Source of the DNA: Sipunculus nudus
Lineage: Eukaryota; Annelida; Sipuncula; Golfingiida; Sipunculidae
Direction: 5' to 3'
DNA length: 64,000 bases
Assembly (NCBI GenBank): GCA_026874595.1
Contig: CM049317.1
Location: 77,259,891-77,323,890 of the forward strand
Shown here: piece by piece, positions 4,901-47,200 of the stretch
How the letters are laid out: every line of letters begins with the position of its first letter
Position numbering within the stretch: the first letter of the stretch is position 1
Position numbers and translations under genes: made by a program
Notes under the pieces: model-generated
What the model was told of the DNA's origin: nothing
Database searches by the model: none
The model's input: the letters and a program-made list of their open reading frames with translations, nothing else

Positions 4901-7900
4901 ACCCATGATCTTCCATCAGTCAAAATATATATCTGTATGTGTAAAATATTATAACATATGTGTGGAAAAAGCCCCTTGGAGAAAATCAGCCAAACTAACC
5001 AATACAACATGAATTGTGAATGTTAGTAATGATCAATTTATGAATGTTGGATTATTTGATTGTAATTTTAGTAATTTTCATATTTAATTTTGCACAGGTT
5101 TATGTCCATTATCTGCATTTTGAAACAGCAGTCAGTGCCAGTCACAAAATATGTATACCCTTTAAACTCGGGTGTCTTGAATACTATCACAGTAATAAAA
5201 AAATACTTGTTGATCATACCTATTTATATTTTTGTCTCTGTGTTAAGTTTGCATAAAGTTAATCCAAATATTTCTTCTCACCTGTCAAGGGCACACATGT
5301 TGAAATGTCAACACAGCAGTCAATAGCCATGCCATGGCAATATTGCAAACTCACTATAATAAGATCTTTAAATCTGTATTTCTTTTCAGAATGTTTTGCA
5401 TGCTTTGCAGTTACAAAAATACATGTCTGAAATTCTAGTTCCCTCACCTGTAATGTCACATGTAAAGTGTTAACCAATGCACTAGTGGCCCTGGTCTCTG
5501 TTATGGCAGGTTTGCTTTGGATCATAATAAAACTGTGTCCATTTTATGTCTGTTGTTACCCTCTCTCCAGTTATACATTTTCCGAGCCTCTTTATCAACA
5601 GTTAATTTAATAAAGTTGTGTATATATATTCATTTAACTGAATTTGGAAATACAGTGGAACCTCCGAAATACAGAAACTGACGGGATCAGGCATTTTGCC
5701 CGCAATAAAGAGGTGCCCTTAGTAGGGAGGTTATAGAATTAGGGCTCTACTGTCAAGGGATTGCCCAGAAGTGGCAGTAAATAAGAGGTGCCTTTAGCAC
5801 AGAGATGCCTGTAAGGATAGGTTCTACTATATACTATTTGTCTGCAATTTCCAGGGCTATTTTGTTTAATTTAGGGCCACAGAGGATATAACATTCTCAT
5901 CTGCATTTTTAGCTTAGCTGACTCTAAGTCAATTGAGCTATAGCGATCACTCTTTGTCCGTTGTCCATCCGGCCATCTGGCCGTTTGCCCGTTAACAAGG
6001 CACAAATTGTAACCACTGGACCTGGAATCTTCTAACTTTACATCTAGAAAGGTCCATGAAAAGTCTTCTTGGACACTTGGAAATAGGTCTCTGTTACCCA
6101 TATCCTCTGAGCTATGGGTCTTAGAAGTACCTCCCAGAATAACTAAAAATTTGATACAAAAGCTCCATTATCTGAACAACTATTGCATTGATCACCCTGA
6201 TTCTTTGCATGCATATTAATCATGGAGTGTTTCATCAGTTCTTGTGGACTTGTGGCACCATCTAAATTTTTAAAAAAATTTCTCCATTTATGAGACCTTC
6301 AAAGATGCGGTCGTCCCTTAACAGGGCTCAAATTGTAACCATTGGTCCTAGAATCTTCAAACTTGACATCCATTGAGATCCTTAAAAAGTCTCCTTGGAA
6401 ACATGAATTAAAGTCACTGTTACCCATATTTTCTGTGCTAAGGGGCTTATAAGCACCCTTCAGAATAATTGAAAATCTGATTCCAAAGTAGGGCACAAAT
6501 CATAACCATAGGCCCAGAATCTAACTTGACATCCTAAGAGTTCCTCCAAAGTTCTCCCCAGAAACCTCAAATTTGGTCACAGTGACCTATATTCTTAGAG
6601 TTTTGGGGTATGTTTGAGCACCCCAGAAATAATGCAAAATACACACAAATTGCCAAATTCCTCATGAAAGGCTGGTTGGATTGTCATCAAATTTGTTGTG
6701 CTTATTGGTCTTGATGAACTTAAGCTTATATGCATGAACAATGATGCATTATATCAACATATTATCAACATGTCAGTCGGCTGAGTGTCATGACCCACGG
6801 GTCACTTGTTTCACCTGGTTGTGCTGCTCACTCTGGCTGACATGTTCTTTGTTCTGTTTTGTTTCAGCTGGTTGTGTCACTCACTCTGGCTGACATGTTC
6901 TTTGTTCTGTTTTGTTTCCGCTGGTCGTGTCACTCACTCCGGCTGACATGTTCTTTGTTCTGTTTTGTTTCAGCTGGTCGTGTCACTCACTCTGGCTGAC
7001 ATGTTCTTTGTTCTGTTTTGTTTCAGCTGGTCGTGCCGCTAGGGCAGGCAGCATCTTTGCTAAGCACAGGAATCAGGAACGTCACACAAAACTTCTTAGC
7101 TTCAAGGTCATGCCGACCTTCACAGACACAAGTCCCACGGGCAGCTAGCACGGCAGCTGATGATGTACCTGCTGTTGATGTCACAGAAGAGGTAAAACTG
7201 GTTAATAAACTAAAATCAATGCCATGTTTAATGCCTGATGCCGTAATGTATTCCATGGTTCAAGTGATGTATTAACTATATTTGACATTTGTACATGGCA
7301 GTAATTGCAGTAGAACTTTAGTCAGTTGTTGGGTTCAATGGTCAACCCACGTTGTGCAAATACAATGAACTTCACCACAGCATCCACTCTTTTATATATT
7401 AAGCTGGTATGTAGGGTTGGATGTTTGCTTAATCCATGATTAACACAATATCTGACAGCTGTGATTACTGTAACATTAACATTTCTGTTATTGGGAGAGA
7501 TGTAAAGATAGCCATGCTGGTACATTAAAAATGGAACAAGATTAGACAGAAAGCCAATTCACTGCCCATGTTTCTGTTTATTCATGCTCCATTTGCATTT
7601 TTGTGATGATGTTATATTAAGATATGTATTGTTGCCCATGGTTTTGAGTTCAAAAACTTATGTTTAAAGTTTTATGCTAACTTTTTTTAAGTGCATCATC
7701 AGATCTTGGTCAGGCTGTTTAATTGTGTTCAAAATGAAAAAAAATTGATAGAATCAAGTTTTTTGAAAATTCTCTAGGGATATGCCGGCTTTAATGCAGT
7801 CACAGACATGTGTCAGATAATACAAACAAGTTTGATATGACAACGAGGCTGAAGGTCCCGTGCCTGATAATGATATATCACTATATAAAAATGATGCCAT

Positions 7901-44200: not shown

Positions 44201-47200
44201 TACCATACCACATTCATCCTTGTGATGTCCATTACGAACACATCTAAGGTACTTACCATACCGCATTTCGTCCTTGTGATATCCATGACGAACACACACT
44301 CCGGTACTCACCATACCGCATTCCATCCTTGTGATGTCCATTACGAACACATACTCTGGTACTTAGCATACCGCATCCATCCTTGTTATGTCCATGACGA
44401 ACACATACTCCGGTACTTACTATACCGCATTCATCCTTGTGATATCTATGACGAACACATACTCCTTTACTTACCATACCGCATACATCCTTGTGATGTC
44501 CATGACGAACACATACTCAGGTACTTACCATAGCGCATTCCATCCTTGTGATGTCCATGACGAACACATACTCCGGTACTTACCATACCGCATTCCATCC
44601 TTGTGATATCCATGACGAATACATACTCAGGTACTTAGCATACCGCATTCCATCCTTGTGATGTCCATGACGAACACATACTCCGGTACTTACCATACCG
44701 CATTCCATCCTTGTGATATCCATGACGAATAAATTCTCAGGTACTTACCATACCGCATTCCATCCTTGTGATGTCCATGACGAACACATACTCCGGTACT
44801 TACAATACCGCATTCATCCTTGTGATATCTATGACGAACACATACTCAGGTACTTACCATACCGCATTCCATCCTTGTGATGTCCATGACGAACTCATTC
44901 TCCGGTACTTACCATACCGCATTCCATCCTTGTGATATCCATGACGAATACATACTCAGGTACTTACCATACCGCATTCCATCCATGTGATGTCCATGAC
45001 GAACACATACTCCGGTACTTACCATACCGCATTCCATCCTTGTGATGTCTATGACGAACATATACTCCGGTACTTACCATACCGCATTCATCCTTGTGAT
45101 GTCCATGACGAACACATACTCAGGTACTTACCATACCGCATTTCATCCTTGTGATGTCCATGACGAACACATACTCCGGTACTTACCATACCGCATTCAT
45201 CCTTGTGATGTCCATGACGAACACATACTCCGGTACTTACCATACCGCATTCCATCCTTGTGATGTCCATGACGAACACATACTCCGCTATTTACCAAAC
45301 CGCATCCCACCCTTGTGATGTCTTTGACGAACACATACTCCGGTTCTTAGCATACCGCATTCCATCCTTGTGATGTCCATGACGAACACATACTCAGGTA
45401 CTTACCATACCGCATTCCATCTTTGTGATGTCCATGACGAACATATCCTCCGGTACTTACCATAGCGCATTCCATCCTTGTGATGTCCATGACGAATACA
45501 TACTCAGGTACGCCGTTAGCGTTCGTATCATTCGACAAGTAGGACTCACACATGGGGTTCCCCCAGCGGCCCAAGGCGTATGGTGTAGCCCTGAGGTCAG
45601 CAGCGGGATCGGGCTCGAACCTGATAGTCCAAGATTCCGGATCCGAGCAGTCGTTTAACACAGACTCCGAGAACGAGGCTCGGCTAACCGGGGTCTGGAC
45701 GCCGAACATGCATGGGGCGTCCTGCAGGAGTAAAAGGGAAACATGCATCTATATATCACTGAGGTGCCTATCACGATGCTATACCACTCAGTGCTATACA
45801 ACTCATAATACATGTATTAAAAAACATTTCTTCCATGTTGGAGACGATTCATTCGAAAATGAAAATCGTATTAAACAGAAAAAATGGACTAAATTTAAAT
45901 TTATATCAATCCTTTACATGGATTGTACATTTACAAGGGCCGTTACAACTCACTCTCATAGCCAACCGGGAACCCATAGAAAACCACCAACCATGGACGG
46001 GCCACTACAACCTGTTCTCATTTCCACCCTTGGCACTATCTATTTAATGACGATGGTGATATAAGCATGTGATAAAAATGTGTCATAAAGCAAAAAAAAA
46101 AAAAAAAAAAAAGAGGTAGGGTTCTCAGGCACCGCGCTCGCCAATTTTAACCCCCCACATCCAAAATTTTTATTTTGATTTTCAATAGAATCTTATCAAT
46201 GTTGAGCTCTAGCCGATCGGACATTTCTTTCAAGAAAGATAAAATAATGCAATTCTGATAAGATTTCATATGTTTTGTAGTGCTTTTAACTGTTTAGCAA
46301 AACAATTCTGTATTATCATGCTTTTCCCCTGATCATATGACATTTTTTAATACAATTTTAATCTTCCGCATATATGCAATCAATTATCTCAGGTTTCTCG
46401 TTTTATTTATATCCATATTTTATTTATAACATGGAGTCGCCAAAATAATCCAAACACATTCAACGAGGACATCTGGCGGTAAATCAGACAAACCAGTGTT
46501 TCGCAAAGGGCGCATTACAACTAACGACCTTTCAGCTTCCGCATATAGGCAACCAATTATCTCAGATGACATGATTTTCTCTGTTTACTAGAACCTTCTG
46601 TATACACAAGATCATACATCCACCATGGACCACAGAGACAATATATGAACGTTTACCAACGAGAATGACATAGAATTAACTAATACTTAGCAGAGTAAGC
46701 CAGGTATTACGTATATTCTATAGTAAACATAGACGAGTAGCCGACTTTAAAACGATATATAGATCCGCGGCTGTTGATGACACCATTGTTTGAAGATAAA
46801 GGTAATAGTGAAGGTATGAACCGTTTTACTTTCATGAGGTACCATATGTTTCCTTCCGAAGTCTTACCAAGTATAGGCTACGTCATCCCCTAATGACGTT
46901 TGTGATGGTGGCCATCTTTGTTCTTTGGCACCTGAATTTCATTCAGCAAAATGATATGTGGCGTTTTATATTCATACGATTAATATTTTGTAGGACAGTG
47001 CTAGGATCTGTGTAATAACACCTACAGGCAAACAAGACCAAGGAAACTTACACTGGATTAAACTTAAAAAGGATTTCAGGTAGAGAGATGTGATATTTGC
47101 ATGGAATGGCAGATCTATACAAGATAGGTTCATAGTCTAAATGTGAAAGCTGATACAAATTATAAATATCTTCTTGAAGAATATGATATCGTTGAGCCAA

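Follow-up and report, generated by a model that had tools for sequence, protein, structure and literature searches.

Minisatellites that span exon-intron boundaries, also called mirages, were reportedly first described by Canestro et al. in 2002. In the lancelet (Branchiostoma) they affect Adh3, the globin genes BflGb6 and BflGb9, TnC and PGBD5 (PMC3087553, PMC3902484). According to the passages of these reports that deal with them, the units measure 150-160 bp, 157 bp and 10-72 bp, the repeat number differs between two haplotypes and reverse transcription PCR suggests regular splicing (PMC3087553), and the copies in Adh and TnC "do not generate aberrant mRNAs" (PMC3902484). Also described are intron gain by tandem duplication of AG/GT sites (PMC3087553) and, in the Pacific oyster, Helentron-borne dispersed arrays resembling satellite DNA (PMC7492417). 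The arrays considered here are found in a stretch of 64,000 nucleotides (C12:77259891-77323890, in the following the window) which carries two unrelated neighbouring genes, and they are probably of the mirage kind, carried to another lineage and dense in this window. The statement of the original prediction that no named class of such arrays was known is thus to be corrected, as mirages had already been described in lancelets; in the open-licence literature no report of such arrays outside lancelets turned up. The name MIRAGE1 in a nematode review refers to a transposon and not to a splice-junction minisatellite.

The window lies 1.23 Mb from the end of a chromosome-scale contig (78,550,287 bases) in an assembly of 1,426,538,692 bases and 153 contigs. 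Its first gene codes for a YME1L-like i-AAA protease with the Pfam domains AAA, AAA_lid_3 and Peptidase_M41, which resembles FtsH and YME1 structures; the spliced model of 18 exons comprises 704 codons including the stop and is open through 17 GT-AG introns, exon E2 being defined by its splice sites and open frame only. As determined by Tandem Repeats Finder (TRF), ten distinct junctions in the two genes bear arrays with units of 27-109 bp, i.e., in the minisatellite range. In window coordinates, genes and junction arrays are as follows.

7027..30554, plus strand: YME1L-like gene from E2 to E20, 18 exons in all (neither the first exon nor the start located), from spliced model, Pfam and structure matches
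6806..7035, plus strand: 53-bp array at the E2 acceptor (E2 start 7027), three of the five copies, the real one among them, with an intact AG (TRF)
13081..14933, plus strand: 109-bp array of 16 copies, made of the last 85 nucleotides of E6, the donor and intron (E6 end 13165)
17952..18088, plus strand: 40-bp array directly before the E8 acceptor (E8 start 18111; TRF)
20659..21286, plus strand: 39-bp array ending 8 nucleotides before E13 (E13 start 21294), unit without the AG (TRF)
22482..22568, plus strand: 27-bp array ending 5 nucleotides before E15 (E15 start 22573; TRF, exon 15 model)
25106..26668, plus strand: 107-bp array of 15 copies, made of the last 45 nucleotides of E16, the donor and intron (E16 end 25150)
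35079..45721, minus strand: second gene, with a ZP domain (spliced model)
35173..35264, minus strand: array in the ZP gene span, AG intact in 2 of 2 copies (TRF)
35925..36049, minus strand: array in the ZP gene span, AG in 1 of 3 copies
37444..38883, minus strand: array in the ZP gene span, 43 copies including the real one, 41 of them retaining the GT
41949..45511, minus strand: array in the ZP gene span, 65 copies including the real one, GT intact in 52

All arrays named in the original prediction were recovered by TRF. Together with the spliced models this bears out the arrays at the E2 acceptor (53 bp), at exon 6 and its donor (109 bp) and at the exon 16 end and donor (107 bp) of the YME1L-like gene, and in the ZP gene those at the exon 2 donor (55 bp) and the exon 6 donor (38 bp) and the duplication at the exon 9 acceptor (45 bp); the array at the exon 13 acceptor (39 bp) was found by TRF as well, with the AG outside its unit. 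Three further junction arrays were detected, the E8 and E15 arrays among them. The arrays also grow into the intron with the exon at their edge, as had been proposed, and despite their presence the coding frame stays open over the modelled junctions.

With regard to the individual copies, the real E16 exon and the consensus of its copies disagree at 5 of 45 sites, and in the E13 array an AG is present in 1 of 16 copies, namely at the real site alone. In the array at 37444..38883 the weakened GTCAGC is the commonest donor form, and about 12 exon nucleotides can be recognised by eye. The copies at 35925..36049 show, again by eye, the first exon bases and the pyrimidine tract but have lost the AG. 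Both copies at 35173..35264 are read through by the open frame. The E8 array continues toward the acceptor in decayed copies, but when the flank is aligned by itself the match is poor, 17 of 300 shuffled versions doing equally well; the E8 copies, which the scan did not take in register, are left out of the copy-by-copy counts of splice signals. An apparent asymmetry between donors and acceptors, with GT being kept and AG being lost in the copies, was dropped because two acceptor arrays from other genes of this genome, one CCT7-like and one myosin (see below), keep the AG in 6/6 copies each.

The likeness to the lancelet mirages, as far as these are characterised in the two reports, comprises a boundary-crossing unit between tens of bp and about 160 bp in length, the involvement of either boundary, the position of the exon at the array edge, the retention of splice signals in many copies and an apparently unaffected coding product. 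In the window, accordingly, tandem units of minisatellite length cross exon-intron boundaries, 5' as well as 3' boundaries are affected, the true exon stands at the edge and the coding frame is intact. The differences are that there are up to 65 copies here and ten affected junctions in two neighbouring genes, that three arrays adjoin an acceptor without including it, and that the described hosts are lancelets, which the present host probably is not (a matter of lineage and not of structure). At 1.4265 Gb its genome does not agree in size with Branchiostoma (about 0.5 Gb), and its muscle myosin is mollusc-like (see below); a molluscan host is likely, and in that case mirages would occur outside cephalochordates. 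With the AG/GT route of intron gain, as outlined in its source, the arrays share the tandem duplication by which splice signals are copied, but here existing introns enlarge and no new intron was seen. The oyster Helentron arrays, in turn, are scattered over the genome like a dispersed class of arrays that also occurs here; the junction arrays, in contrast, are locus-specific and made of host exon and intron, and the units of the window junction arrays were found in none of the other fetched loci.

An independent sample was picked from the same genome without regard to repeats. It comprises genes matching PF00118 (chaperonin) or PF00063 (myosin head), 12 chaperonin and 6 myosin stretches with a total of 177 kb, of which the myosin part represents a minority of the matching clusters. 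Exon ends were scripted from 68 family matches and 23 entries (22 from cross-gene comparison, one found via its own array), giving 174 junction entries, 173 of them distinct. With a score of at least 100, TRF reported 22 arrays, 12 dispersed ones (11 distinct, one being split by a stretch boundary) and 10 local ones, of which the following three include a junction.

L035: CCT4-like donor array, 112 bp, 16 copies, GT in 16/16 copies (by eye)
L039: CCT7-like acceptor array, about 30 bp
L046: myosin acceptor array, 82 bp

By chance, 1.36-1.94 of the 10 local arrays would be expected to do so at limits of 0-25 bp (P = 0.14-0.30). When the exon whose detection depended on its own array is left out, the count is 2/10 (expected 1.35-1.92, P = 0.40-0.60), and in a one-strand version 3/9 (P = 0.10-0.23). 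For the main counts TRF was run on both strands, which added the array in L038, 321 bp from a junction, to the sample and 22786-23360 to the window. A further comparison, made without TRF, takes the 30 bases centred on each junction, looks for a second copy within 600 bp and sets the result against intron controls. In the sample, 1, 3, 3 and 4 of the 174 junctions were duplicated at 3, 5, 7 and 8 mismatches, respectively, as compared to 1.8%, 2.6%, 3.6% and 4.5% of the controls, and there is no excess; in the sampled genes, junction duplication is about as frequent as duplication at any intron position. Since the sample remains at the intron background, the window appears as a hotspot (or as a picked window), with arrays at 10/48 junctions versus 3/173 in the sample (Fisher's exact test, P = 1.8e-5, the window having been picked).

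We therefore favour, with a probability of roughly 0.6, the interpretation that the arrays are mirage-type minisatellites which arose by random local tandem duplication in a hotspot and were tolerated since splicing would keep to the outermost site. By chance, a short stretch crossing an exon-intron border or ending beside it would have been duplicated in place, and the copies would then have been multiplied and homogenised, with unequal exchange or slippage as the probable mechanism. If splicing uses the outermost original site, i.e., the first of the donors or the last of the acceptors, the additional copies with their exon pieces would remain intronic and the protein unaltered, which would explain why duplications at junctions survive; the exon would stay at the array edge because it is the sole copy under coding constraint. 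In only five of 13 units is the length a multiple of three, so that use of a copied site would often shift the frame. Of the two explanations offered in the original prediction it is tolerated growth on the intron side that is adopted here, whereas nucleation by the splice site is unproven.

The latter alternative holds that splice-junction sequence, or RNA-DNA structures or stalled machinery nearby, seeds tandem duplication and thereby makes junctions mutation hotspots for minisatellites, and we regard it as possible but doubtful. It draws on several results that weigh against random duplication. Shrinking each TRF array inside the two gene spans (period at least 15, overlaps merged, score at least 100, 37115-37238 joined to 37444-38883) to one unit and placing it randomly within its own gene, 2.54 of the 12 locus-specific arrays are expected within 25 bp of a junction as compared to 10 observed (P = 6.7e-6), although this and the following P values say nothing of the whole genome because the window was singled out for its striking look. 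When two dispersed repeats are counted as well, 10/14 arrays lie that close (expected 3.50, P = 2.3e-4), and with a score of at least 50 on one strand 10/19 do so (expected 3.85, P = 0.0015), but 0/6 of the weak arrays; a junction lies inside the TRF edges in 5/12 (expected 1.33, P = 0.006) or 5/14 cases (expected 2.18, P = 0.043). In addition, the E8, E13 and E15 arrays end just before the acceptor and do not contain it, an arrangement not expected from purely random duplication, ten different junctions are affected in two unrelated genes, and at up to 3 mismatches 4 of the 48 window junctions have a duplicated 30-mer versus 1.6% of the controls (P = 0.008). The independent sample is also small, and a two- or threefold junction excess would still be compatible with it. 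However, the excess over random placement that had been suggested as a check and is seen in the window finds no firm counterpart in the 177-kb sample, neither in the 3/10 local arrays nor without TRF, and in the window itself the excess of duplicated junctions is not significant at 5, 7 and 8 mismatches (4, 4 and 6 of 48; P = 0.16, 0.48 and 0.23). Moreover, the exon share of the unit ranges from 0.08 to 0.93 in the 8 TRF-defined spanning arrays and does not deviate from uniformity (Kolmogorov-Smirnov test, P = 0.83; P = 0.35 with two eye-aligned arrays added, n = 10), and such an even spread of unit ends around the splice site argues against a fixed cut there. The density of arrays would thus reflect a local hotspot and the picking of the window more than seeding by splice signals. 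That minisatellites are truly born at exon-intron junctions, acceptor tracts included, in this large, non-chordate and probably molluscan genome, with introns growing outward from their splice sites and with regional hotspots of which the window would be one, we consider unlikely.

Positive selection, with extra splice sites or pyrimidine tracts aiding exon recognition or regulating splicing, is an improbable reason for the maintenance of the arrays, even if the GT is retained, real copies included, in 16/16 copies at E6, 15/15 at E16 and 52/65 and 41/43 in the ZP gene, as well as, by eye, in 16/16 copies of the CCT4-like array, and if a copied donor can come closer to the consensus than the original (GTAAGA in a copy versus GTGAGA at the real site in CCT4). 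An origin from satellite-like cores of mobile elements inserted in introns, such as the Helentron-borne repeats of oysters, can build on the dispersed arrays, which account for 12 of the 22 sample arrays and for 9897-10836 and 22786-23360 in the window. Yet all 12 dispersed sample arrays keep a distance of at least 349 bp from the modelled junctions, and for the exon-containing units this origin is refuted by their content, which is the host exon's own sequence, and by the matches of the one among them searched genome-wide: the E6 unit yielded 16, every one inside the E6 array. For the E8, E13 and E15 arrays a mobile origin would still be conceivable. As the 38-bp unit of an array in intron 7 likewise gave 23 matches that all fall within that array, both look home-grown. 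In line with this, 0 of the 12 locus-specific window arrays match other fetched loci whereas the dispersed ones do, although short units give little power here. As a whole, mobile cores are a very improbable source of the arrays, and an assembly artefact, for which the difficulty of assembling long arrays could be held responsible, is similarly improbable.

Apart from the junction arrays, the two gene spans contain the following arrays.

9897..10836, plus strand: array of a 289/146-bp dispersed repeat away from junctions, with like units in 6 other fetched loci
15758..17779, plus strand: 38-bp array of 53 copies in intron 7, nearest junction 316 bp away (TRF)
22786..23360, plus strand: 295-bp dispersed repeat, 1.9 copies, 169 bp from the E15 end (TRF on the opposite strand only)

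The 295-bp repeat has more copies at 9326-9609 and in L041. Dispersed families found in introns are one of 180 bp (L033, L036, L044), one of about 166/340 bp (L040, L043, L048) and the 146/289-bp family (L034, L041 and 9897-10836 in the window), and on comparison these might possibly be mobile-element cores like those of oysters. The largest array of the window has a 33-bp unit repeated 172 times over 5.6 kb (49961-55591; TRF). It lies outside the gene models, but the ZP gene could include it in its long first intron, and the inspected units hold, on the minus strand, the donor-like sequence GTGAGAGT. Beyond the modelled exons TRF also reported a 38-bp array of 13 copies (55794-56296) and a CT-rich 16-bp array of 48 copies (48571-49312).

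A GC-rich segment with long open frames on the minus strand (59684-61335) resembles a DIRS-type retroelement with a tyrosine recombinase; a Pfam search with its two long open reading frames (59.7-61.3 kb) gave 0 families. Scanning the window yielded 0 matches to Rfam at gathering scores and 0 tRNAs, and a repeat-pattern scan of viral contigs was without a match. In the assembly, nine equal-scoring GroEL matches reside on contigs C61, C62, C66, C72, C73, C75, C89 (two) and C99. The one of the nine inspected (L003) looks bacterial, the best match among the 80 GTDB loci listed being 69% identical, with a neighbouring open reading frame that is presumably dihydroxyacid-dehydratase-like; such contigs would represent either a symbiont or a contaminant. 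Finally, four tandem exons of a muscle myosin (C2:44849337-44852248) correspond to much the same part of the head (positions 109-153 of the hidden Markov model), which suggests that they may be mutually exclusive. Mutually exclusive myosin exons are known from protostomes. Muscle myosin exons of this genome score highest with 3i5f (375.7 bits) and 1dfk (368.3), the squid and the scallop myosin, and slightly lower with Myosin-6 (362.0).

In the lancelet reports, as far as they go, mirages are described from lancelets only and are few in number per paper, and the 10 + 3 junction arrays in a genome of 1.43 Gb that is probably molluscan suggest that they are more widely spread. They provide a natural setting for testing how splicing picks the correct site out of as many as 65 nearly identical ones, and by this route introns could grow and possibly also be gained. 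If a junction excess were to hold genome-wide, splicing signals would be tied to the instability of DNA.
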